Assembly: GCA_017999915.1 (NCBI GenBank)
Contig: JAGNKX010000011.1
Span: forward strand, 1 to 64,000
Length of the DNA: 64,000 nt
Reading direction: 5' to 3'
Source: Spirochaetota bacterium
GTDB lineage: Bacteria; Spirochaetota; UBA4802; UBA5550
The notes under the pieces were generated by a model. The model saw nothing but the letters and a program-made list of their open reading frames with translations, was not told the DNA's origin and ran no database searches. Shown in pieces: positions 4,028 through 64,000 of the stretch. Both the position numbers and the translations under genes were made by a program. Every line of letters begins with the position of its first letter. The first letter of the stretch is position 1.

Positions 4028-5413
4028 CTACACCTGCTTTTTTTCTTCCATCTCCTTGATCTGCCGGAGAATATCCCGGTATCTCTCCTCGTTGATGGGA
4101 TAAAAATAAAGTACAAGGGCGCCCGCGGCGAGTATGGCTGCCGGTATTGGTCCGAGGAAAAGGCGGATGCCAAGCTGAGCAGAGGGCGTCTGTGCTACGT
4201 TCTCAACGTATCCGGACAGGCTGAGGATCCACCCCATGACAAAAATGGCAAAGGCCTGGCCGATCTTAAACCCCCAGGTCCATATGCTGTAGAAGGCTCC
4301 CTCCCGGCGCTCGCCGGTTTTGAGGTAATCGTACTCGATCGCGTCAGGGACTATCGCAAAGGGCATAGCATAGGTGAAGCCGAACCCGATCCCGGTAAAA
4401 AACATCATGCCGTACATGAAATTGATGCCGAGAACATGGCCGTAGAAGAAGATGATCATGAGCGCGAAAGCTTTAATGAGAAGGCCGATCGCGTAGACGA
4501 GCTTCTTACCGATTTTTTTGGACAGGATGACGCTCACCGGGATCATCGTCAGCGCGGTGATAATCAGAATTGGCAGCGCTATGTTGGTCCCTTCAACGTG
4601 ATTGAGTATGTACTTGAAATAATAGATGGCGATGCCGCTCAGAATGGTTATGCCCATGATGTGGAACACGTAGGCAAGGAGGATAAGAAGGTACGGCTTG
4701 TTTTTGAAGACCGTGCGGTAGGTTTTCAATATCCCCATCGATTCGGCGGGCCGAAGCTTCGCCGGTTCCCGTACCAATATGACGGTCAGCAGAGCGGTGA
4801 TCATCATGGCGCCGCCGAAGATCGCGCCCAGGGCGGCGAACCCGACGGTCTTGTCCGCGAACATCCCGACGAGGGGAAGGGCCACGCCGGCGCCCAGGAG
4901 CGTTCCTATCGCCGCGAACCCGAAGCGGAACCCGTTGAGGCTGGTGCGCTCGTGGAAGTCCTGCGTCAGCTCGGGCACCATGGCGTTGTAGGGGATGTTG
5001 ACCGTCGAGTACGAGGTGCAGAGCAGCATGTAGATCACCGTCACCCATATGAAAAGAAAAGTCTGGTTCGCGGCACTCTGCCAGCCCCCTCCCATGAACA
5101 TCGCCGGATTGAGAAACATGAATATCATGGTTATGAAGAGGGGGATCGAGCCGGCGAGTAGGTACGGCCTGCGTCGCCCCATTGTGCTCCTGGTGCGGTC
5201 TGATATGTACCCGATGACGGGGTCGTAGAAGGCATCCCATATCCTGCCGATCATGAGGGCGGTGCCCGCTAGACCCGCAGCGAGCCCCACCGTGTCGGTG
5301 AGATAATTCATCAGCACGAACGCGGTGACCGTGAAGAAGAGGTTGCCGCCGACGTCGCAGACCCCGTAACCGAGTTTGGTCTTGAGAGATAATTTGGACA
5401 ATGTGTTTCCCAT
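4028..5413 (-). CDS. GPH-family glycoside/hexuronide:cation symporter (MFS)
   Basis: A 461-residue transporter with about 12 membrane segments. The N-terminus (KLSLKTKLGYGVCDVGGNLF), the TM2-loop motif YDPVIGYISDRTRSTMGRRR and NIPYNAMVPELTQDFHERT are hallmarks of the glycoside-pentoside-hexuronide family (MelB, XynP, YicJ). These import sugars with H+ or Na+ across the inner membrane. The ATG at 5413 has GGGAG upstream. It is the last gene of a same-strand run (isomerase, dehydrogenase, transporter), so it probably imports the sugar those enzymes process; the sugar cannot be told from sequence. Confidence 0.88.
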   Translation of the reverse strand: MGNTLSKLSLKTKLGYGVCDVGGNLFFTVTAFVLMNYLTDTVGLAAGLAGTALMIGRIWDAFYDPVIGYISDRTRSTMGRRRPYLLAGSIPLFITMIFMFLNPAMFMGGGWQSAANQTFLFIWVTVIYMLLCTSYSTVNIPYNAMVPELTQDFHERTSLNGFRFGFAAIGTLLGAGVALPLVGMFADKTVGFAALGAIFGGAMMITALLTVILVREPAKLRPAESMGILKTYRTVFKNKPYLLILLAYVFHIMGITILSGIAIYYFKYILNHVEGTNIALPILIITALTMIPVSVILSKKIGKKLVYAIGLLIKAFALMIIFFYGHVLGINFMYGMMFFTGIGFGFTYAMPFAIVPDAIEYDYLKTGERREGAFYSIWTWGFKIGQAFAIFVMGWILSLSGYVENVAQTPSAQLGIRLFLGPIPAAILAAGALVLYFYPINEERYRDILRQIKEMEEKKQV

Positions 5414-5498
5414 GGCTTAGCTCCCTTCCTATTAATACCCCAATGTTGATCTCAGCGATTGCAATGTCGCCACATCAAGCCCCGAAAAAAGGCCTTGG

Positions 5499-6683
5499 TT
5501 ACCAGTCGTGGGGACGATCGGTCTGGAACGATTCTATTTCACGAAACAGATTATCGCGCGTAATCTTGATCCCTTCCCTGGCAGACTTGTACGACGCGAG
5601 GGTCCACGCGATGGTGAGGAAAGAGTCTTCCGGCGTCGCGCCCCATGGGCCGCTGATGCCGTCTTTCATCGTATTCTCATGACGCACATTATCGATAAAG
5701 TACTTCATTTGCCGGTAAAACATGGTTTTCTTCCTGCTGTAAGGAAATATGACCGGATAGTAATGGTTATGGAGGATGTTTAGAAGCCGGTAAACGCCCA
5801 CCTTTAAGCGGCGCTTCTTGTACGCATGGGCGGCCCTGAAGGCGATCTTCCCCTTTTCTCCGTAAATATATCCCCGTTCAAACCCATAAGGACTTCCGGT
5901 GCGGATGACGTTCTTATCATAAAGAAGCACCGCGCCGTTGGAAAGCTTGAAGGTGGCCACCGCCAGATCCTCATACGGGCGCGATTCCGGATAGCATCGT
6001 TTCGTTTCGCATGAAACCTGTTCAATTTCCATTCCGTAGAACCGGATAATATCCAAATAGTGCGGCGCGTGATCAAAAAAATCGCCTCCGCCCGCCCTTA
6101 CATCGCTGTACCTCCAGAAGCCGAAGTCCCGCACCAGGTCGAATCCATATTTTTTCAGTTTCTGAACGATCTTTCCAAGCGGGCCGGCAGTGAAATCGGG
6201 AATGAAAAAGTACCAGAAGATACTTATCTGGAAGATCCTTCCAAGGGAATTGTTCATCAAGAGCTCCCTGATTCTCTGATGTCCCGGTTCAAATCGCTTG
6301 CAATGGCCCATGAGGATATAGACGTTTTGTTTTTTGCCGGCTTCAAGTATGGTACGGCAGTCCTTCAGATTCGTCGCCATCGGCTTCTCGCACAGGATCG
6401 GAAGGCCTTTTCTGGCGCTGTCTTCAACATGTACCGCGTGGAGTGATGGCGGCGACGATATGACGACTGCGTCCAGCTCTTCATTTTCGAGCATTGTGCG
6501 GTGGTCCTCGTAAACTCCCTGCACATGGTACTTTTTTGCGAACAGGCTTCTGTTGCGGTGATCGGGATCGCTGATGGCCGCGATATATGCCCGGCCATCA
6601 GCCTTGATGGCGGGACCATGGCCCACACGGCAAATATTCCCCGCGCCGATAAGACCTATTCTTGTTTTATCGCTTTTTTTCAT
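5499..6683 (-). CDS. Gfo/Idh/MocA-family oxidoreductase
   Basis: A 394-residue NAD(P)-dependent sugar or cyclitol dehydrogenase. The N-terminal Rossmann domain has GLIGAGNICRVGH, then AAISDPD, and the signature CEKPMA (about residue 97) with its catalytic Lys. The second domain contains GGGDFFDHAPHYLDIIRFYG, matching the family GG-x-x-x-D-x-x-x-H active-site segment. I prefer the ATG at 6683, nine bases after AGAGG, over the ATG at 6692 that directly abuts it. It is AT-richer than the flanking chromosome. A truncated relative lies at 7736. The substrate is unknown. Confidence 0.87.
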   Translation of the reverse strand: MKKSDKTRIGLIGAGNICRVGHGPAIKADGRAYIAAISDPDHRNRSLFAKKYHVQGVYEDHRTMLENEELDAVVISSPPSLHAVHVEDSARKGLPILCEKPMATNLKDCRTILEAGKKQNVYILMGHCKRFEPGHQRIRELLMNNSLGRIFQISIFWYFFIPDFTAGPLGKIVQKLKKYGFDLVRDFGFWRYSDVRAGGGDFFDHAPHYLDIIRFYGMEIEQVSCETKRCYPESRPYEDLAVATFKLSNGAVLLYDKNVIRTGSPYGFERGYIYGEKGKIAFRAAHAYKKRRLKVGVYRLLNILHNHYYPVIFPYSRKKTMFYRQMKYFIDNVRHENTMKDGISGPWGATPEDSFLTIAWTLASYKSAREGIKITRDNLFREIESFQTDRPHDW

Positions 6684-6833
6684 AATTCCCATCCTCTGGC
6701 GTTTTATATCCTTTTATTATCAAGGCAATTCCATTGCATAAAACGAATATAACGCCGGTGCATCTTCCATGGCACGGGTTCATTTCGTGCGGCTTTAAAC
6801 GATTGAGGGCAGTCACAAGACTACCCTCCCTGA

Positions 6834-7673
6834 TTATATTTGCCGCAATATTGCCTTAAGGTACTCTTTCGATTCAATCGCCCAGGCATCAATATCGATC
6901 GGATATCCGGTATGGACCTGTACCGTTAAATCGCCGTTATACTTTATTTCCTTGAGCGCGGAAAGAAAAGCTTTCCAGTTGACCGATCCGCGTCCGGGAG
7001 GCTGGTGATTGTCGCCCTGGCCGACGCCGTCGTTGTCGTTGCAATGGACGTACACAAGGTCTTTTCCCGCCTTTCGTACCGCGTCCGAAAGATTCGGATC
7101 GGTGATGTTTTGATCGGCCGTATCTATCATTACCTTGCAGTTGGGCGAATTGATTTCACGCATCATTTGAAGCGCGTCGTCCAGCGTCACCACCACGCGC
7201 GATTCGCACCATGTGAGGGTGTGAATCGCCATCATTACGCCTTTTTCCTTGGCATGTGCGACGACTTCACCCATGCATTCACGGTTCCATTCCCACGCCT
7301 GTTCCCGCGATGTTCCATGTATCATGTGGCCGCTGATCATATTGACGATGGGAATTTTCATGTCAGCGGCCATATCAACGCAATCGATATAGTATTCCAC
7401 TGACTTCTTCCTGATTTTCTCATTGGAATGGGAAAAATTGATGTGAAGCGCCAACCCTCCCCCATTGACTGAGAGCGCCACCGCATCCAGCCCGGAATCC
7501 TTTATTACTTCCATTACCTTCCGGCGTGCCCCGGCGTCATACAGATCGGGACCGAGGTGAGGACTGTACGCCCACATGTCTACGACCTTATATCCTATCT
7601 TCCCGATTCTTCTCACCGCTTCTTCCAGTGTCGTGTAATCAAGATAGCCCATTGTGCAAAAGCCCAGTCTCAT
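6834..7673 (-). CDS. sugar phosphate isomerase/epimerase (xylose isomerase-like TIM barrel)
   Basis: A 279-residue AP-endonuclease-2/xylose-isomerase-like TIM barrel. It shows the ordered metal-site segments of the family: an early GYKVVDMWAYSPHLG, IPIVNMISGH, the Asp of KVMIDTADQN, the His of LVYVHCNDNDG, and GRGSVNWKAFLSAL near the end. Members isomerise or epimerise ketoses, inososes or related sugars using a divalent metal. AGGAGG lies 9 bases before the ATG. It is upstream of the Gfo/Idh gene on the same strand (about 150-bp gap), a pairing common in inositol-type and keto-sugar catabolism. Confidence 0.85.
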   Translation of the reverse strand: MRLGFCTMGYLDYTTLEEAVRRIGKIGYKVVDMWAYSPHLGPDLYDAGARRKVMEVIKDSGLDAVALSVNGGGLALHINFSHSNEKIRKKSVEYYIDCVDMAADMKIPIVNMISGHMIHGTSREQAWEWNRECMGEVVAHAKEKGVMMAIHTLTWCESRVVVTLDDALQMMREINSPNCKVMIDTADQNITDPNLSDAVRKAGKDLVYVHCNDNDGVGQGDNHQPPGRGSVNWKAFLSALKEIKYNGDLTVQVHTGYPIDIDAWAIESKEYLKAILRQI

Positions 7674-7735
7674 GATAAATACCTCCTATGGTAAATTGCA
7701 TTTCATTATTATTACTTATTAAACAGCTCCTCCCT

Positions 7736-8221
7736 TTATATCTCCCTTCCTTCCGCGGCCGATAGGTACGCGGCCAGCGTCCATACAACCGCGATCATGG
7801 CATCCTTAATGCTTGCCGCCCATTGTTCCCCCTGATCGTGTTTGCCTGCCGCTCTATTATCAATCCTGTCGATAATGTGTTTCATCTGCCTGAAGTAGAG
7901 GATGTGTTTTTTGCCTCTGGGAAGGAATTGAGGAGTGTAAATATCCGGAATGATGTTGAACTTTTTGTTGAGTTTGAGCTTCATGGGTTTGTGCTGATAC
8001 TCCTGAAATGCCTCAAATTCGACCTTCGCGTATTCGCCGTAAAAATGGCCCTTTTCAAATCCACTGGGCCTTCCCATGACCATGATGATCTTCTCCATAA
8101 CGGCAACCGAATCGTTTGCAAGGGAGAACACAGCCATAAGGCTTTCCACCGGTTCAATTTTGGTCAGAAAATATATAAAATGATTATTGCATATTATACA
8201 ATAATTATGTATAATAAACAC
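7736..8221 (-). pseudogene. N-terminally truncated Gfo/Idh/MocA oxidoreductase remnant
   Basis: The open frame encodes 161 residues, but only the part from about 8150 down to 7736 is real homology. It parallels the C-terminal third of the dehydrogenase at 5499: GFEKGHFYGE versus GFERGYIYGE, YFRQMKHIID versus FYRQMKYFID, and VWTLAAYLSAAEGREI versus AWTLASYKSAREGIKI. The Rossmann domain and the CEKP motif are absent. The first 25 codons (MFIIHNYCIICNNHF...) are AT-rich non-homologous sequence. It is probably the remnant of a second dehydrogenase gene cut by a deletion that brought the AT-rich stretch and the repeat at 8484 next to it. Confidence 0.75.
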
Positions 8222-8483
8222 AAAAATAATTCCATGTCAATAACTAATTTAAAATTAATAAATATATCAGTAATTATTCTTAAATAGGGTATTTAATCGT
8301 TATTAACCGGCTTATATAGGACGCGCCGCAATCTGGATCAGTCCTCAGGAAAATACAACAGCTACAGGGGGAACAATGATTGTTAAAGGAGACAAAAATA
8401 TATACCGGACACAATAATGTCCGGCTTTACTCTTTTATAATTCATGAGGACTTCTCAAAATTACTTTTAAAAGGTCCCCATTG
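8222..8483. other. AT-rich intergenic stretch, no gene seen
   Basis: This stretch is much AT-richer than its surroundings, notably 8160-8290 (ATAATTATGTATAATAAAC, AAATTAATAAATATATC). It may hold promoters for the minus-strand sugar genes, but I see no confident -35/-10 pair and no coding frame. A small inverted repeat around ACCGGACA...TGTCCGG (8403-8424) could fold. Confidence 0.5.
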
Positions 8484-8599
8484 ATTATATAGGAAACTCT
8501 GACCAGATCGGTAATGGCCCAATAGATATAACAGGTCTTATCTGAAGCATAAAAAGGCATATGTCAACTGTAAAAGTTATGGACAGAGGTCTTAAAATT
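8484..8599 (+). repeat. 116-bp direct repeat, copy B (right bracket of sugar block)
   Basis: Same orientation and near-identical sequence to 3510-3625. Its internal frame reads MSTVKVMDRGLKIR and then stops, so here the gene start carried by the repeat is not followed by a gene. The ceramidase gene begins 45 bases later. Confidence 0.9.
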
Positions 8600-8643
8600 A
8601 GATAAAATGGATCCTGACATAAATCCAAGATTCGGAGCCAAAC

Positions 8644-10743
8644 ATGAGAATTACAAAGCTAATCATTGCTCTTATTGTATCCATGATGGTTTTCTCCTGC
8701 CAGGGAGATACCGGTTCCAAGATGAAGGCGCTCTTCGGTATCAGCGGGAGCGAACAGACCGCTTTCACCCCGGTTACACCCGCGGCAAGCATCCAGGCCT
8801 CGGTGCAATCCGCGACGCAGTACATCGTCGGCACAGGCATATACGACGTGACCGGCCCAGCCGCAGAGCTCGGCATGATGGGATATTCCATGGTCGACCA
8901 GAAGACCTCCGGCATTCACACGCGGCTCCGGTCCAGGGCCTACATCATCGGCGACATGAACACGAACAAGCGGGTTGTTATCGTGAGCGCGGACATCTGC
9001 ATGATATTCCAGTCCGTGAAGCTCAAGGTCACGCAGATGGTCAGGAATGACCCGGAACTCGCGCCTTATTATAATGAAAAAAACATCCTTCTTTCGGGGA
9101 ACCACACCCACAGCGGCCCCGGCGGATATTCACACTATGCCACCTACAATCTTTCCATACTCGGGTTTGACAAGCAGAACTTCGACGCCATCTGCAACGG
9201 CATCTTCAGCTCCATAAAACGCGCGCATCGCAACCTGGAGCCAGGCTATATTTTCGTCGCCAGGGGCGAGCTCAACGACTGCGGCTGGAACCGCTCGATC
9301 AACGCATACAACAGCAATCCCGCCGCGGAACGCGCCCGCTACGGCTCCTCCACGGATAAGACCATGACCCTGCTCAAGATAGTCTCTGCGTCGACAGGCA
9401 ACGAGCTCGGCATGATCAACTGGTTCGCGGTACACCCCACGAGCCTGGGCAATACCAACACCCTCATCTCCAGCGACAACAAAGGGCTCGCGGAATACTA
9501 TTTCGAGAAAATGAAGAACACGGACTATTCATCCTCGAAGACCTTCACCGCGGCGTTTGCGCAGACGAACTCCGGGGACGTATCCCCCAACATCTACTGG
9601 GGATACCCCCAGGGCGGCGAATCGGATTTCGAACATATGGAGATCATCGCCCAGAGGCAGTACAACAAGGCAGTCGAGCTCTACAATTCGGCCACCGAGG
9701 CCCTGTCTGGCCCGATCGACTTTCGCCACACCTGGGCCGACTTCACCTCCATCGCAGTCGATTCAGCGTATGCCGGGGCCTCGGGATACACAACCTGCTA
9801 TGCGGCCATCGGGTTCCCCCAGATCGCGGGAAGCACCGAGGACGGCAAGGGCGTCGACCTGACCCACGAGGGAATGGCCTGGGGCGACGGATCGTGGCCT
9901 TCGTTCACGCTCGTTCCCGGCGACCAGGAGTGCCAGGCCGAAAAGATCATCCTGCTCCCCGCGGGGAGGATGACCCCCTATCCCTGGGTGCCTCAGACCC
10001 TGCCGATGCAGATCATCCGCATCGGAAACCTGGCGCTCATCGCGGCGCCCGCCGAGGTTACGACCATGGCGGGGCGTCGTCTGCGCGAAACGGTTCTCAC
10101 CGCGCTTAACGGCTCGGGCATAAACTGCGCGGTCATATCCACCCATGCCAATACCTACACCTCCTACGTCACCACGCGCGAGGAATACGCGACCCAGCAC
10201 TACGAGGGAGGATCGACCCAGTTCGGTCCCTATACCCTCGCGGCGTTTCAGCAGATATTCAATAACCTGGCCACGGCCATGAAAAACGGCGCCGACGTGG
10301 CGCCGGGCACGACACCGCCGGACCTCGGCAACGTGCAGAACACCCTGCAGACGGGCGTGGTCTTCGACGACAAGCCGCTGTTCAAGAGCTTCGGCGACGT
10401 GTATTCAGACGCATCTTCATCGTACACCCGGGGCGGCACGGTCAGCGTGACATTCTGGGGCGGGCATCCCAAGAACAACCTGCGCATCCAGGACACCTTC
10501 CTGAATGTGGAGCGCAAGAACGGCTCGTCGTGGGTGACGGTCGCTAACGATTGGGACCCCGAGACCCGCTACATGTGGAAGCGCGACGGCGTGGCGAATT
10601 CCAAGGTCACTATCCGGTGGAAGATTCCGGCCAATGCGGCCACGGGGCAGTACCGGATCCGGCATTTCGGCAACTGGAAGTCGGGATGGACCGGGGCAAT
10701 TTCATCCTATACCGGCACCTCGCGCACCTTCACGGTTAACTGA
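8644..10743 (+). CDS. neutral/alkaline non-lysosomal ceramidase, lipoprotein
   Basis: A 699-residue ceramidase that splits the amide bond of ceramide into sphingosine and fatty acid. A lipoprotein signal (MRITKLIIALIVSMMVFSC, lipid Cys19) places it at the outer surface or periplasm. The catalytic domain has GTGIYDVTGP near the start, the zinc site NHTHSGPGG, the nucleophile motif NSGDVSPN (Ser corresponds to Ser274 of the Pseudomonas enzyme), and AAPAEVTTMAGRRLR with CAVISTHANTYTSYVTT. A C-terminal beta-sandwich (about 570-699) matches the usual ceramidase tail. GGAG precedes the ATG. It is followed by a strong terminator, so it is probably a single-gene unit. Confidence 0.93.
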   Translation: MRITKLIIALIVSMMVFSCQGDTGSKMKALFGISGSEQTAFTPVTPAASIQASVQSATQYIVGTGIYDVTGPAAELGMMGYSMVDQKTSGIHTRLRSRAYIIGDMNTNKRVVIVSADICMIFQSVKLKVTQMVRNDPELAPYYNEKNILLSGNHTHSGPGGYSHYATYNLSILGFDKQNFDAICNGIFSSIKRAHRNLEPGYIFVARGELNDCGWNRSINAYNSNPAAERARYGSSTDKTMTLLKIVSASTGNELGMINWFAVHPTSLGNTNTLISSDNKGLAEYYFEKMKNTDYSSSKTFTAAFAQTNSGDVSPNIYWGYPQGGESDFEHMEIIAQRQYNKAVELYNSATEALSGPIDFRHTWADFTSIAVDSAYAGASGYTTCYAAIGFPQIAGSTEDGKGVDLTHEGMAWGDGSWPSFTLVPGDQECQAEKIILLPAGRMTPYPWVPQTLPMQIIRIGNLALIAAPAEVTTMAGRRLRETVLTALNGSGINCAVISTHANTYTSYVTTREEYATQHYEGGSTQFGPYTLAAFQQIFNNLATAMKNGADVAPGTTPPDLGNVQNTLQTGVVFDDKPLFKSFGDVYSDASSSYTRGGTVSVTFWGGHPKNNLRIQDTFLNVERKNGSSWVTVANDWDPETRYMWKRDGVANSKVTIRWKIPANAATGQYRIRHFGNWKSGWTGAISSYTGTSRTFTVN

Positions 10744-58419: not shown

Positions 58420-59487
58420 TCACCGCGCCTTCACGAATCCGCCAAGAAGCGAACCGAGCATTTTCCCCACGTCACGGAGGATATCCACCGTGATGCGGTC
58501 AAGGCTCGCCAGGGATGATTTCTTTGATTCGCCGAATATCACCCGGGACGCTTCCGATGCGCAGCGGGAGACCAGCTCCGAGGCGTCCTCGCCGCTCTCC
58601 TCTTTCATGACCCCGAACGCATCAATGAGTTCCTTTCCATACATGTCAATGAAATGATAGAACAGGGAATTGAACCGTTTCTTCGCGTCCGCCACATACC
58701 GGTCCATGGCGCGGTCGACGATATCCCCCGAACCGATCCCCTCCACGGCGCCGTGCGCCAGGGCCTCGCAGAAGGGAGAAAATCCCTCACGGAACCGGCG
58801 CTCAACGTATATTTCATAGCTCTTGTGTATGGCGGACGCTGTCACCATGAGGGAGCGGACCGACGCGATACGCCTGACCAGATACGGTCCGGGCAGGGCC
58901 TTGACATGGAAGGGATTGCCCAGGTCCGCCAGGTAATGGGTGCAGCGGGAGAGATACCGCCAGCCCCAGTATTCATGGCCGTCGCCAAAGGCGGCCCGCG
59001 CCCGGTCCCGGTGGTACCGGAACGATTCACGGACCATCCCCACGGTCATTCCCAGGACGCTGAACTCCATGTGGCGCCACCCGTGGGAGCCGCCGGTGAG
59101 CTTTTGCCTCTTGTGAAGAAAAAGGTCGCAGTCCGGCTTCAGGTCCGGCTCGGTGCCGTAGATGACCAGGACCTTCCACGGTTCTATGGCCACGTCAGGG
59201 GGCGCCTCGGCGCTGTAATCCCCGTTCCGCGCCGAGTAATCAAAGGAGCCCAGGGGGGCCAGACTCCTCGCAACGCGGAACGACTCCTTGTACAGGTCCC
59301 GGTGGTGGGGCCCCAGGGGCCAGGAGGGATCGGCGCCAAAAGGATTAGTTCGCACCGGCACCGGCGGCAGGTCACAGATGGCCGCCAAAGCCCGCACGGC
59401 GCAGTAATTGATATATTCATGGGAAAACCAGGGAGCCCAGGCCCGGGGAAGCCGGCCGTCATCATGGAGAAACATGCCGATATTCAT
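58420..59487 (-). CDS. zinc-dependent phospholipase C / S1-P1 nuclease-like protein
   Basis: A 355-residue helical protein. It carries motifs typical of the PLC/P1 fold: an N-terminal FSHEYINYCAVRALAAICDL, TGGSHGWRHMEFSVLGM, and the metal-binding YLSRCTHYLADLGNPFHVKA (H-x3-D-x4-H), which matches the zinc site of bacterial phospholipase C and P1 nuclease. A C-terminal helical region (FNSLFYHFIDMYGKELI) follows. No signal peptide is obvious, which is unusual for this fold; an internal start at 59475 would not add one. The substrate is unknown. Confidence 0.65.
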   Translation of the reverse strand: MNIGMFLHDDGRLPRAWAPWFSHEYINYCAVRALAAICDLPPVPVRTNPFGADPSWPLGPHHRDLYKESFRVARSLAPLGSFDYSARNGDYSAEAPPDVAIEPWKVLVIYGTEPDLKPDCDLFLHKRQKLTGGSHGWRHMEFSVLGMTVGMVRESFRYHRDRARAAFGDGHEYWGWRYLSRCTHYLADLGNPFHVKALPGPYLVRRIASVRSLMVTASAIHKSYEIYVERRFREGFSPFCEALAHGAVEGIGSGDIVDRAMDRYVADAKKRFNSLFYHFIDMYGKELIDAFGVMKEESGEDASELVSRCASEASRVIFGESKKSSLASLDRITVDILRDVGKMLGSLLGGFVKAR

Positions 59488-59551
59488 CCTTCATTAAGCG
59501 TTATCATGCCTTAAACGACATGCGCGCAACACCGTGCGCGCATAAAGTAAA

Positions 59552-59580
59552 AACGGCGCGGGAATTAATCCCGCGCCGTT
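59552..59580 (-). terminator. intrinsic terminator of the RuBisCO-like operon
   Basis: On the minus strand a 12-bp stem AACGGCGCGGGA / TCCCGCGCCGTT with a 5-base loop is followed by TTTACTTTATG. It lies 15 bases after the RuBisCO-like stop codon. Confidence 0.85.
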
Positions 59581-59594
59581 CCTGTGAGACTGTA

Positions 59595-60932
59595 TTACAG
59601 TTTGAAATCCGTCTTCTTGCCCCATGTGCCGAGAGCTCGGCCCAGTTCCTCGTGATCCTTGGCATACTCGTCCACCTTTACGCCCTTTATGGCGGCGTCG
59701 ATCGCCTGGCGGAGAGCCCGGGCGCCGGCCCGCGGACCCATCGGGTGGGCATGGATGCCGCCGCCGGACCCGATCATGACATCCTTGCCAAGGGCGTTCA
59801 CGATGTCCTGCACGTTGTTCGGCGTGATGCCGCCGGACGGCATCGGCATGGTGGGCTTCAAGTTACCCATCGGATAAATCAGGTTTCTCGTCGTCGCCAT
59901 GAAGCGCTCATGCATGTACATGGCCTTGCCGCCCATGGAGAAGGGAAGCACGATCGAGTCCGCGCCGCAAAGCCGCGCGATTTTTCCGAAAATTATCGGA
60001 GAGGATATCCCCTGGTATGGTGACATGAAGTAGGCGCCGGCCACGTCCATGTGGGCCAGGATCGGCACGTTGATGTTCGGATCGTCGGCCAGGGCGCGCA
60101 TCGCCTCCGGTCCCACGGCCAGGTAGTTGACCATCATCGCGTTCGCGCCCGCGTCGATGCAGCGCTTGGCCAGGTCGAACATCCGCGGCAGACGGTCGGT
60201 TACGTTGACCGTGTAGAGGGTGTGCTCTCCGGTCTCCTCGAACACTTCCTTTTCTATCTTCATGTACAGCTTGACCCGCTCGACCGCGTCGTTGTAGCGC
60301 ATGTTGGCGATGAGCTCGTCGTCCTTGATGACATCGCAGCCGCCCAGGGCCGCCTGCCTGAAGAGCTCGGCGCCCACTTCAAGCGGATACCCGCTGCACG
60401 GCTTGACCATGTTATTGAGGAGGGGACGTCCCTTCTGCAGGCCCAGGGCCTTCCACCAGCCATCGGTCCCGAACCTTGGCCCGTTGAACTGGTCCAGGGT
60501 GGCCTTTGGAAGCCTGATGTCCAGGAGCTTGAAGTTGGGCACCAGCGAAATGTTTCCGACAAGCGCGGTCAGCATCATGGGGAGCTGGTCCTCCACGTTG
60601 GCCGCAGGGAAGGCGATCTGCACGATGTACTGCCGGGCCGTGACGTCGGCGGGCACGCCATATTCATAATAAGGCGCCTCGTACACGCCGATCACCTTCG
60701 CGACGTGTTTCGCCCGAATCTCCGGGGTCTCGCCCGGCACCGGGGTCCAGGTACCGGTGGTCTGCTCGATGGCAAGCACTTGCCCCATCACCGACATGTC
60801 CCATGCCTTGTCGAGCTGGGTCCAGTAGGTGGCGATAAGATGGGTTTCCATGTCGACAGCCTCAGGTATTGCGATCGGCTTGGGTGCAAACTCATCTATC
60901 TGTACGCAAATTTCTTTTTCCTTCTTCGTCAT
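59595..60932 (-). CDS. RuBisCO-like protein (form IV)
   Basis: A 445-residue RuBisCO large-subunit homologue. The carbamylation and metal motif is kept: GGCDVIKDDEL gives Lys203, Asp205 and Glu206 (equivalent to K201, D203, E204), and NMVKPCSG gives Lys177 (K175). The region of the catalytic loop 6 (usually GTVVGKLEG, K334) has no equivalent Lys; the sequence is GISSPIIFGKIARLCGADSI. Phosphate-binding SGG (367-369) and GGG (390-392) remain. So it should act as an enolase, isomerase or transcarboxylase on a phosphorylated sugar-like substrate rather than fix CO2. AGGAGG precedes the ATG. The adjacent genes are a class-III aminotransferase and an FGGY kinase. Confidence 0.93.
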   Translation of the reverse strand: MTKKEKEICVQIDEFAPKPIAIPEAVDMETHLIATYWTQLDKAWDMSVMGQVLAIEQTTGTWTPVPGETPEIRAKHVAKVIGVYEAPYYEYGVPADVTARQYIVQIAFPAANVEDQLPMMLTALVGNISLVPNFKLLDIRLPKATLDQFNGPRFGTDGWWKALGLQKGRPLLNNMVKPCSGYPLEVGAELFRQAALGGCDVIKDDELIANMRYNDAVERVKLYMKIEKEVFEETGEHTLYTVNVTDRLPRMFDLAKRCIDAGANAMMVNYLAVGPEAMRALADDPNINVPILAHMDVAGAYFMSPYQGISSPIIFGKIARLCGADSIVLPFSMGGKAMYMHERFMATTRNLIYPMGNLKPTMPMPSGGITPNNVQDIVNALGKDVMIGSGGGIHAHPMGPRAGARALRQAIDAAIKGVKVDEYAKDHEELGRALGTWGKKTDFKL

Positions 60933-60965
60933 ATAAGCCTCCTTCTTAAAATTGAATAATCCATA

Positions 60966-62369
60966 TCAGCCCTTCGGAATCTCTGAAAGCAGCCGCTCCC
61001 AGACGTCCAGGGTCTTTTTCAACGATTCGTCGTCATGCTGCATGCAGGTGTACATCCGCGTTCCGGCCAGCGAGCAGAGCCCCAGGGCCGACGTCACGAT
61101 CTGGTAGCTGTCCGCCACCGCCTTGCGGGTAAGGACCTGCTTCAGCGCGTCCGGCGCCGACACGTCCACCCCGAAGAATCCAGTCGTCACGTAGTGCATG
61201 ATGGGGCCGAAATTGTAAACGAAGAAGCCCAGGTCTTCCCGCGTGGCGAAGAGATCGTTCATAGCCTTCGTGAGGCGGTCGGCGTAGGCCGTGGCCTTCT
61301 TTACCGCTTCATGCTCATCCATGAGCTTGATGGCATGGTAGCAGGCCGCCGTGGTTATGGGATTCGCCGCCAGGGTTCCGCCCACGTATATCTTCTCGCC
61401 CAGGCCGCCGGCGCAGACCTTCATCACGTCCTTCCGCCCGGCCACTGCGCCGCAGGAGGGATAGCCGTGGCCGATGATCTTGCCCAGGACGGTAATGTCC
61501 GGCATGATGTTGAAATACTTCTGGGCCCCGCCCATGTCGAGCCGGAAGCCGGTGACCACCTCGTCGAAGATAAGGAGGGCATTGTACTTGTCGCACAGCG
61601 CCCGTATGGTCCTGTTCCAGTCGGGATGGACCGGGTGCGCCCCGGATTCGCCCCCGATAGGCTCCACGATCACCCCGGCCACGTCATTGGCGTTGTCCTT
61701 GAAGGTCTTTTCCAGCTCGTCGAAGTCGTTCGGCTTAACGTCCAGTATATGGGCGTAGCTTTCCTTGGTAATCCCCTTCGAATAGAGGGGGCCGGATTTC
61801 GGAACATGGAGCGAATAGACCATCTGGTCGGACCAGCCGTGGTAGCTCCCGCCGATCTTGATGATCTTCTGCTTGTTGGTGTAGGCCCGGGCGATGCGGA
61901 GCGCCGCCATGTCCGCCTCGGTGCCGGACTGGAGGAACCGGACCATGTCCACGGCCGGCATGTGGTCGATGATCTCCTGGGCAGCCATGAGCTCATACTC
62001 CGAGGTGAGGCCCGTGGCCGGCCCCTTGGTCCTGATGATGTCGATGATCTTGTCGTCCAGGGGGCTGTAGCTGTGACCCAGCATGATCGGCGCGCCGCAC
62101 ATCAGGTAGTCGACGTATTCGTTGCCGTCGACGTCCCACACATGGTAGCCCTTGGCGCGGTCCATCGCCACCGGGAAGGGATGGTTCTGGCTCAGGTTGT
62201 GCTCGACGCCGCCGGGGATGACGTTCTTCGCCTTTTCGAACATCTCCAGGGACTTCTTGTTCTTATTCGTGTACATCGCGCGGTATTTTTCCAGCGTCTC
62301 CGCCGGGAGCCCCCTGGGTGGTATGGCGAGGACCTTCTTGAACCGCGATAGTATTTCATTGTATTCCAT
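60966..62369 (-). CDS. class-III aminotransferase (glutamate-1-semialdehyde aminomutase-like)
   Basis: A 467-residue PLP enzyme. Signature regions are GYHVWDVDGNEYVDYLMCGA, FLQSGTEADMAALRIARAYT, the metal/acid box FDEVVTGFR (Asp269) and the Lys297 PLP site VLGKIIGHGYPSCGAVAGRK. It most resembles GSA aminomutase and other sugar/amino-acid aminotransferases of that branch. A short N-terminal extension (about 50 residues) precedes the canonical start. The location between the kinase and the RuBisCO-like gene argues against a haem role and for amination or deamination of a carbohydrate-derived oxo group; that is inference. GGAGG lies upstream of the ATG. Confidence 0.88.
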   Translation of the reverse strand: MEYNEILSRFKKVLAIPPRGLPAETLEKYRAMYTNKNKKSLEMFEKAKNVIPGGVEHNLSQNHPFPVAMDRAKGYHVWDVDGNEYVDYLMCGAPIMLGHSYSPLDDKIIDIIRTKGPATGLTSEYELMAAQEIIDHMPAVDMVRFLQSGTEADMAALRIARAYTNKQKIIKIGGSYHGWSDQMVYSLHVPKSGPLYSKGITKESYAHILDVKPNDFDELEKTFKDNANDVAGVIVEPIGGESGAHPVHPDWNRTIRALCDKYNALLIFDEVVTGFRLDMGGAQKYFNIMPDITVLGKIIGHGYPSCGAVAGRKDVMKVCAGGLGEKIYVGGTLAANPITTAACYHAIKLMDEHEAVKKATAYADRLTKAMNDLFATREDLGFFVYNFGPIMHYVTTGFFGVDVSAPDALKQVLTRKAVADSYQIVTSALGLCSLAGTRMYTCMQHDDESLKKTLDVWERLLSEIPKG

Positions 62370-62390
62370 GGTGAAACAGCCTCCTTCGTA

Positions 62391-63998
62391 TTACTGAAAT
62401 TGCGGCGCCGGCGTGCAGGCGCCGGCAGCCTTGGTTGAATTGATCCGCGCGCATGCCTTTTTCTGAGACCTGTACAGGTTGACATATTCGAGGAACAGGT
62501 TGTCATATATCTTCCGGTGGTCAGGATTGGGCTGGAATTCCGCCTTGATCTTAATGCACCGGGAAATGTCCTCCACGGTGATGTGGCCCAGGGACAGGGC
62601 AGCCAGGAAGGCCACGCCCCGGGCGTTGGAGAAGATCGGGTCCTGGACCTGCCTGATGTTGATGTTCATCACGTCGGCGAGGATCTGGGACCAGACATCG
62701 GAATTGGCGCCGCCGCCGATGAAGTTGAGCGCCGCGAAGGGCCTCTTCGTGAACTTCTCCACGTAGGTGAGGAGCCACTTCTGGTTCAGGGCCACACCCT
62801 CGAACACGGCGCGGGCGATGTCCTCCCGGGTGTTCTCCAGGGAGAGGTTAAAGAGGGACGACCGGATGTGGCGGTCCTCCACCGGCGTGCGCTCGCCGTA
62901 GAGCCACGGCGTGAAGATGACGTTGTTGGCGCCGGCCGGTATGCGGGACACGATCCTGTCCAGGACCTTGAAGATGTCCGGGGCCTTTTCCTGCTGGAGG
63001 AGCTCGTCCTTGTGGTAGAGGACGTTGTCACGGAGCCAGAGGAGGCACTTGCCGGCGCACTCCTGCTCGGTGAGGATCAGGTACCGTCCCGGGATAGGGC
63101 TCGGGAAGGAGCCCATGCCGTGAAAAATGTCGGTCTTCTTGAAGGGCACATGGGCCGTTATCCAGGAAGAGGTGCCGATGTACACGTGGCCCTCGTAGTC
63201 CCGCACGGCCCCGGACCCGACGCAGGCTGACTGCACGTCCGGCGTGCCGCCGATGACCGGCGTCCCGGCCTTGAGGCCCAGCTCCGAGGCCACCTCTTTC
63301 TTCAGGGGGCCCAGCACATCGATGGCGCGGATCAGGTCGGGGAGCTTGTCCCGGTCTATGCCGACCATGCGGATAAGCTTGTCGCTGTAGACCACCCTGT
63401 CCGGGTCGCGGTTGTCGGTCACCCAGTGGAGCAGGATGGAATCGAAGGTCGCGGCGAACTTTCCCGTGAGGCGCATGTTGATGTAATCCTTCGGCTCGAG
63501 GAACTTGTAGGTGTTGCGGTAGATATCGGGGCAGTTCTTCTGGATCCACACGATGTGGCTGATGGGGTCCTTCCCGGACATGGCCGGCGCGCCGCCGGTG
63601 AGGCGGAGCCAGGTAATGACCTTGGAGAGGGGATACCCTTCGAACTTCGGGAAACCGGTGAGCTTTTCCTTGAAGGGCTCGGCGCCCCGCGAATCCATCC
63701 AGATAACGGCGTTCATCAGGTGCCGGCCGTCCCTGTCCACCGGCACGGTGCCGGACCACTGGGTGGTGACGCTCACGGCGATGATGTCATCGGCAGGCAC
63801 GAGCCTCCGGGCCAGGACCTGCTTCGCCGTGGAGATGATGGCCTTCCACCACCCCTCAGGGTCCTGCTCGGCGCCGCCGCCGGGAAGCAGGATGACCGGC
63901 GTTTCGGCGAAGGCGTCGGCGACCACGTCGCCGTGAATTGATATCAACGCCGTTTTCGGACCCGACGTTCCCAGATCGACAGCGAGGACGTATTTCAT
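62391..63998 (-). CDS. FGGY-family carbohydrate kinase
   Basis: A 535-residue FGGY kinase, complete within the window. The first phosphate-binding loop is AVDLGTSGPKTALI; VTTQWSGTVPVDRDGR and AVIWMDSRG are typical xylulokinase-like segments; the catalytic base lies in VIGGTPDVQSACVGSG, and LNFIGGGANSDVWSQILADV is the C-terminal adenosine loop. It phosphorylates a sugar or sugar acid. The gap to the aminotransferase is 21 bases. The ATG is only 2 bases from the window edge, so the upstream operon genes and promoter are not visible. Confidence 0.92.
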   Translation of the reverse strand: MKYVLAVDLGTSGPKTALISIHGDVVADAFAETPVILLPGGGAEQDPEGWWKAIISTAKQVLARRLVPADDIIAVSVTTQWSGTVPVDRDGRHLMNAVIWMDSRGAEPFKEKLTGFPKFEGYPLSKVITWLRLTGGAPAMSGKDPISHIVWIQKNCPDIYRNTYKFLEPKDYINMRLTGKFAATFDSILLHWVTDNRDPDRVVYSDKLIRMVGIDRDKLPDLIRAIDVLGPLKKEVASELGLKAGTPVIGGTPDVQSACVGSGAVRDYEGHVYIGTSSWITAHVPFKKTDIFHGMGSFPSPIPGRYLILTEQECAGKCLLWLRDNVLYHKDELLQQEKAPDIFKVLDRIVSRIPAGANNVIFTPWLYGERTPVEDRHIRSSLFNLSLENTREDIARAVFEGVALNQKWLLTYVEKFTKRPFAALNFIGGGANSDVWSQILADVMNINIRQVQDPIFSNARGVAFLAALSLGHITVEDISRCIKIKAEFQPNPDHRKIYDNLFLEYVNLYRSQKKACARINSTKAAGACTPAPQFQ

Positions 63999-64000
63999 AG

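Follow-up and report, generated by a model that had tools for sequence, protein, structure and literature searches.

In the sphingosine-1-phosphate (S1P) lyase route a kinase acts first and a lyase then gives an aldehyde and phosphoethanolamine. The operon analysed here encodes an FGGY-family kinase (FGGY1), a class-III aminotransferase (AT) and a form-IV RuBisCO-like protein (RLP), and it shares with that route the proposed substrate, phosphorylation at C1 and the C2-C3 bond. It differs in that AT and RLP stand in the place of the lyase, the products would not be the same, and the kinase belongs to the FGGY family and not to the DAGK-type sphingosine kinase family. Among the RuBisCO-like proteins, MtnW (form IV-YkrW, the 2,3-diketo-5-methylthiopentyl-1-phosphate enolase) has the fold, the carbamylated Lys with the metal ligands and a phosphorylated keto substrate (a proposed one in our case) in common with the RLP, whereas the RLP keeps equivalents of RuBisCO K334 and E60 that MtnW has lost, has no K98 base and belongs to a separate clade. 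The DeepYkr protein is a 5-methylthioribulose-1-phosphate 1,3-isomerase (PMC5893883); ketose-1-phosphate chemistry and a common superclade (99/98) bring it close to the RLP, but it has His at the E204 ligand, Arg at K334 and Gly at S379 and forms its own clade. OiaX and the RLPs beside four-carbon-acid kinases, OiaX chemistry being CO2-related, share the loop-6 Lys and the kinase-RLP neighbourhood, but are accompanied by another kinase family, keep R295 and again fall in a separate clade. Compared with RuBisCO forms I-III, the RLP keeps equivalents of E60, T65, W66, N123, K175, K201, D203, E204, H294, K334, S379, G380, G381, G403 and G404, but is without K177, R295 and H327, and its neighbourhood has no Calvin-cycle gene. 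An open-licence literature search found nothing relevant on an RLP together with a class-III aminotransferase and an FGGY kinase, which agrees with the initial annotation in regarding this as a new setting, and likewise nothing relevant on RLPs with sphingolipids, FGGY kinases with sphingoid enzymes, or bacterial sphingolipid degradation.

The window, by which we mean the whole analysed stretch of 64,000 nucleotides (positions 1 to 64,000 of contig JAGNKX010000011.1, forward strand), belongs to a Spirochaetota assembly of 5.46 Mb in 29 contigs. The three tightly packed minus-strand genes and the strong terminator described in the initial annotation were both confirmed: gene calls give the coordinates listed in Table 1, the gaps are 21 bp (FGGY1-AT) and 33 bp (AT-RLP), the Pfam matches of all three products are far over the cut-off, and the two GC-rich hairpins 3' of RLP have a folding energy of -49.6 kcal/mol (z -6.0), with equal stability in 0/200 shuffles. 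The first hairpin has a U run behind it. The 355-aa gene starts 107 bp past RLP, beyond the terminator. FGGY1 has an alternative ATG start at contig base 64010. The DNA upstream of position 64000, in which the rest of the operon had been expected, was examined as well; the next gene on the same strand encodes a TetR regulator (contig 64207-64842), 196 bp off, and the window edge costs the operon nothing important.

Table 1. Features of the operon and related features in the window, with the basis of each assignment.
Feature	Position	Strand	Basis and predicted role
FGGY1, FGGY-family kinase	62391..63998	-	Pfam FGGY_N/FGGY_C; predicted C1 kinase for a sphingoid base or the corresponding 2-keto compound
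AT, class-III (HemL-like fold-type I) aminotransferase	60966..62369	-	Aminotran_3, 192 bits; predicted to convert the C2 amine to a ketone
RLP, form-IV RuBisCO-like protein, new clade	59595..60932	-	PF00016, 151 bits
Intrinsic terminator of the operon (first hairpin and U run)	59548..59583	-	Folding
Second GC hairpin, past the terminator	59519..59544	-	Folding
355-aa accessory gene	58420..59487	-	Zn-dependent phospholipase C / S1-P1 nuclease fold; probable cytosolic phosphoesterase
Neutral ceramidase, outside the operon	8644..10743	+	PF04734, 558 bits; same proposed substrate class

Relatives of the RLP were sought in 84,980 species genomes with exact peptides of the window RLP as the query, by which distant members are missed; 22 close relatives (81-89% identity) were found, and besides them one distant archaeal RuBisCO-type match (L026). 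The carriers, mostly incomplete MAGs, are Smithella, Syntrophaceae, Desulfobacterota, records labelled Deltaproteobacteria or Myxococcota, and Spirochaetota, in which the clade is rare. The order FGGY-AT-RLP is kept in 19 of the 22 loci. The three genes therefore belong together, as had been proposed, and the lack of co-occurrence that was named beforehand as the observation against this was not seen. AT is absent from locus L018, and in L022 and L023 the RLP is flanked by another class-III aminotransferase (27% identical), another FGGY kinase, an SCP2 protein and a GlpD-like protein; the genomes of these three loci yielded no close AT ortholog, and its absence beside the RLP speaks against the pathway proposed below. 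An apparent 762-aa fusion of the RLP with the PLC-fold protein in L022 was rejected because it crosses a stretch of N within the scaffold. Near the RLP of the 22 loci there are genes for a TetR regulator (15 loci), an MFS transporter (about 13), a class-II aldolase (10) and the 355-aa protein (16), whereas the minimal set of FGGY, AT and RLP alone is present in L017 and L024.

We consider it fairly probable that the operon breaks down sphingoid bases without S1P lyase and that the RLP acts on a keto-phosphate, the substrate and all reactions being deduced from sequence, neighbourhood and trees. The kinase, AT and RLP would then probably replace the usual sphingolipid-backbone lyase in anaerobic bacteria. 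In this pathway FGGY1 would phosphorylate the C1 hydroxyl of a long-chain 2-amino-1,3-diol, and AT would exchange the C2 amine for a ketone, either before or after phosphorylation. The product, R-CHOH-CO-CH2-O-PO3 (3-hydroxy-2-oxo-octadecyl phosphate if sphinganine is the starting compound), would share the C1-C3 arrangement of RuBP but carry an alkyl tail and lack the second phosphate. In the RLP, carbamylated K203 together with D205 and E206 would hold Mg2+, and K177 could serve as the base that removes the C3 proton, giving a 2,3-enediolate. Two outcomes can be envisaged. First, and favoured here, K336 would assist the addition of CO2 at C2, and cleavage between C2 and C3 would release 3-phosphoglycerate and a fatty acid; second, reprotonation would give the 2-hydroxy-3-keto isomer. 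The general logic of the initial annotation, in which a kinase, an aminotransferase and then the RLP lead through a keto-phosphate, fits the gene set and this route. If true, bacteria would possess a way of splitting sphingoid bases that is independent of S1P lyase.

The RLP is a member of the RuBisCO superfamily with its fold and its metal site. Its predicted structure matches RuBisCOs and RLPs with Z 30-34.6, and MtnW is both the top structural match (Z 34.6) and the best sequence match in the PDB (2zvi). It remains below the cut-off of every curated model, all RuBisCO models included; the scores are 284.5 of 513.6 bits (TIGR03332) and 328 of 409 bits (PRK09549) for MtnW and 173.6 of 700 bits (NF042437) for OiaX. 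In a tree with labelled references (MtnW, DeepYkr, Photo, OiaX and RLPs beside four-carbon-acid kinases from annotated plasmid loci, with the GOS and AMC clades left out), the window RLP groups with its relatives in a single long-branched clade (22 rows, 100/100), which adjoins MtnW and DeepYkr but lies outside both, and also outside the three other reference groups. The DeepYkr clade (12 rows, 100/100) excludes the window RLP, and the Photo reference (L034) gives 538 bits to 1ykw. The protein thus falls in no characterised clade, as was anticipated, and the membership of the MtnW or OiaX clades that had been named as contrary evidence was not seen. Most form-IV RLP clades are without a known role, and for the present one, compounds of the proposed substrate class can be purchased or synthesised.

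The list of RuBisCO active-site residues comprises 19 positions, 15 of which are identical in the RLP, and those that were checked are invariant in the clade. The retained residues are E56, T61, W62, N127, K177, K203, D205, E206, H294, K336, S366-G-G and G390-G391; K177, K203, D205 and E206, which the initial annotation had recognised as kept, are invariant in 22/22 members. The losses concern RuBisCO K177 (C179 in the RLP), R295 (Met) and H327 (no His), and position 335 is Ala. The replacement of R295, the P2-phosphate residue, fits a substrate with one phosphate. As the C1-C3 part of the proposed substrate matches RuBP, and the residues for the C1 phosphate and the metal are kept while R295 is gone, enolisation is the safest predicted step. 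The loop-6 Lys, on the other hand, was stated to be absent, and this did not hold: in the multiple alignment K336 shares the column of RuBisCO K334 (Lys in 7/7 RuBisCOs and 6/6 OiaX-type RLPs); it is invariant in 22/22 clade members, and the predicted structure places it in the loop that leads from barrel strand 6 (326-330) to the following helix (338-348). Loop 6 of the RLP carries a one-residue insertion, which shifts the K334 column in some pairwise alignments and makes the comparison with some RuBisCOs ambiguous. In our sample this column holds Lys in RuBisCO and the OiaX-type group, Ser in MtnW, and Arg in DeepYkr and Photo.

Given the pathway, carboxylation followed by cleavage to 3-phosphoglycerate is possible, and we put it forward tentatively. 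It is favoured by K336, N127 and S366-G-G, which are kept against the trend in the enolase and isomerase clades, and by the minimal set of L017 and L024, which contains no dedicated isomer-using enzyme, 3-phosphoglycerate and a fatty acid needing none. It is disfavoured by the nearest characterised clades, which do not use CO2, by the loss of H327 and by the insertion in loop 6; moreover, K177 matters for RuBisCO activity, and its replacement by C179 weakens the carboxylation reading. Taken as a whole, the claim that the RLP is a CO2-fixing carboxylase of RuBisCO type, acting on 3-hydroxy-2-oxo-alkyl-1-phosphate in the sphingolipid breakdown of anaerobes and not in the Calvin cycle, is rather doubtful. 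The clade would allow a direct test of whether RuBisCO-type carboxylation occurs outside ribulose bisphosphate. Somewhat unlikely, too, is the reading in which the same sphingoid pathway uses the RLP only as an enolase or isomerase for the C2-to-C3 shift of the carbonyl, the PLC-fold protein or the class-II aldolase finishing the process. The nearest characterised relatives of the RLP in the tree, MtnW and DeepYkr, are indeed an enolase and an isomerase, the latter offering a precedent on methylthioribulose-1-P (PMC5893883), the loss of RuBisCO K177 agrees with it, and the PLC-fold gene comes after that of the RLP in 16/22 loci, an arrangement parallel to MtnW-MtnX. Yet the residues retained in the RLP argue otherwise, since the enolase and isomerase clades have lost the loop-6 lysine, and the phosphoesterase gene is not beside six of the loci and in the window stands behind the terminator.

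The 355-aa protein has no sequence match in Pfam, NCBIfam or the PDB. Its model, of moderate confidence (mean pLDDT 74), aligns with B. cereus phospholipase C (1p5x) at Z 14.4 over 210 residues (rmsd 3.2) and with nucleases of the S1 type at Z 10-12; in Foldseek by itself no match to this model reached an E under 0.001. The invariant residues H184-x3-D188-x5-H194 and H221-x3-E225 are spaced like the zinc ligands of enzymes with the PLC/S1-P1 fold. The modelled fold makes a cytosolic phosphoesterase likely, with an accessory role because six loci are without the gene nearby.

Upstream of the TetR gene, on the minus strand like the operon, lies a gene (C11:65334-66887; L002:8335-9888) whose product is by its sequence an S1P lyase, with 631 bits and E 1.5e-188 to 3mad. 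An MfnA-like decarboxylase was rejected as its identity, the score to MfnA being 98 bits. A second kinase gene, FGGY2 (67003-68589, minus strand), comes next upstream of the lyase gene, likewise beyond the window, and its product is 58% identical to FGGY1. All 23 closest homologues of the lyase in 296 Spirochaetota genomes (at least 54% identity, that of the window genome included) have an FGGY gene immediately upstream on the same strand, as do four further, more distant lyases, one of them in a Desulfatitalea genome (G307), while about 13 other lyases have no FGGY gene within 1.5 kb. The constant position directly upstream of the closest lyases suggests these FGGY kinases as the source of the sphingoid-base 1-phosphate required by the lyase. 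We know of no FGGY kinase acting on a lipid, which counts against the pathway; if the suggestion is true, FGGY kinases would be the enzymes that phosphorylate sphingoid bases in bacteria alongside S1P lyase. In the kinase tree, a quick tree like that of AT, all kinases of RLP operons form one clade (support 100) nested in the S1P-lyase-partnered clade (99), beside the lyase kinases of the genus itself. The other FGGY kinases of the window genome are outside the lyase-partnered clade, except for one paralog (L158) without a known partner. S1P lyase is absent from 14 of the 23 RLP genomes, which is expected if the RLP route replaces it.

The substrate indicated jointly by the lyase and ceramidase neighbours and by the phylogeny of the kinase is a sphingoid base, a long-chain amino-diol; the sugar acid or keto-sugar proposed in the initial annotation is not supported. 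Sugar catabolism appears improbable: the FGGY and class-II aldolase families do act mostly on sugars, and the best named model for FGGY1 is xylulokinase (XylB, 270 of 380 bits; the AI-2 kinase model gives 169 of 528), which like all named FGGY models leaves it below the cut-off, but the kinase is nested among those partnered with S1P lyase, and the operon has no conserved sugar-specific gene across the loci examined. An MFS importer, for its part, would be odd for a long-chain base and counts against the sphingoid pathway.

In two loci, Smithella L004 and L005, ceramidase genes (PF04734, 554 and 508 bits) adjoin the RLP operon. The presence of ceramidase beside the operon in just 2/22 loci is a point against the sphingoid pathway, and a search of 23 RLP-bearing genomes turned up the enzyme in only 6. 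It is found in 42/296 Spirochaetota genomes, mostly without the RLP clade, and is a weak predictor when taken alone. With ceramidase missing from most RLP genomes, free sphingoid bases may be what the carriers feed on; alternatively, a related lipid of the amino-diol type may be the actual substrate. The pathway bears on the possible fate of sphingolipids with syntrophic anaerobes in sludge and sediments. Biosynthesis or remodelling of the cell's own amino-polyol lipids instead of breakdown is very improbable; the AT and RLP steps could run other ways, but the TetR, MFS, ceramidase and lyase neighbours look catabolic, and the very similar sequences across phyla combined with a patchy distribution suggest horizontal transfer of a catabolic unit.

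Sister clusters in four congeneric genomes combine ceramidase, an AraC-type regulator, FGGY, a class-II aldolase and a class-III AT, with an MFS gene adjoining where the contig extends; a fifth genome has FGGY, aldolase, AT and MFS, and no ceramidase within the 18 kb read. The aldolase of these clusters would handle 4-hydroxylated bases, giving DHAP and an aldehyde. A scheme resembling methionine salvage with a long alkyl tail, in which dehydration of a 3,4-diol-2-ketone-1-phosphate by the aldolase homolog gives a 2,3-diketone, the RLP enolises this diketone like MtnW and the PLC-fold protein removes the phosphate like MtnX, is hardly credible: it could draw on the MtnW match in the PDB and on the aldolase homolog near 10/22 loci with its weak MtnB matches (84 bits, cut-off 137), but the aldolase scores higher to fuculose-phosphate aldolase (142 bits), the position of the MtnW base K98 is N127 in the RLP, the neighbourhood has no conserved acireductone dioxygenase and the carriers look like anaerobes. 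Hopanoid side chains, alkylglycerols and AI-2 were dropped as candidates, as no neighbouring gene supports them.

AT scores 313 of 527 bits against the HemL equivalog, below the cut-off, and is separate (support 100) from the closest class-III paralog in the window genome. It shares a clade (100) with the AT of the ceramidase-aldolase clusters. Class-III enzymes are able to use sphingoid-like amines, an example being FumI, the aminopentol aminotransferase (6hbs), a distant homologue of AT (E 1.1e-29).

An FGGY kinase lies directly upstream of the S1P lyase gene in 27 loci, namely the 23 closest Spirochaetota lyase loci (L108-L130) and four more distant ones (L131, L139, L145 and L146). This kinase is likely to be the bacterial sphingoid-base kinase that serves the adjoining lyase, a role for which apparently no description exists in the literature searched. 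FGGY kinases are also found in a cluster with a class-II aldolase, a class-III aminotransferase and an MFS transporter (L100, L101, L102, L103/L148, L149 and L179), which is adjoined by a ceramidase in four of five genomes. The cluster probably represents a parallel route, in which 4-hydroxylated bases would be converted to DHAP and an aldehyde.

In two relatives of the RLP operon, L022 and L023, the RLP and the PLC-fold gene are kept, and the place of the RLP partners is taken by proteins of the same classes that are not their orthologs: the flanks hold a different class-III aminotransferase and a different FGGY kinase, together with an SCP2 lipid-carrier protein and a GlpD-like protein. Divergence is also unequal within the operon of the window. 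Its RLP is 89% identical to the Smithella-type loci L004 and L005 and 86% to the congener L006, whereas its kinase and aminotransferase share 90-91% identity with those of L006 but no more than 72-74% with those of L004/L005. The operon may be a mosaic, or the RLP may have evolved very slowly.

The window carries a ceramidase of its own, whose three neighbours were identified by eye only; this group could possibly serve glycosphingolipid breakdown. Two loci that are not related to each other, L018 and L008, have a sulfatase-family gene beside their RLP operon (the L018 gene assigned by Pfam, that of L008 by eye), and sulfated glycolipids are a possible source. Several small gene pairs lie upstream of the window's operon.

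Coordinates of the features discussed (L002, the window's own locus including upstream DNA)
Feature	Locus	Position	Strand
RLP operon	window	59595-63998	minus
Ceramidase	window	8644-10743	
Ceramidase with sugar-isomerase-like TIM barrel, Gfo/Idh-like oxidoreductase and GPH-type MFS	window	4028-10743	
Sulfatase-family gene	L018	4710-6161	
Sulfatase-family gene	L008	11180-12973	
Gene pairs resembling a PIN-domain toxin and its antitoxin (by eye)	L002	14371-15040 and 17372-18998
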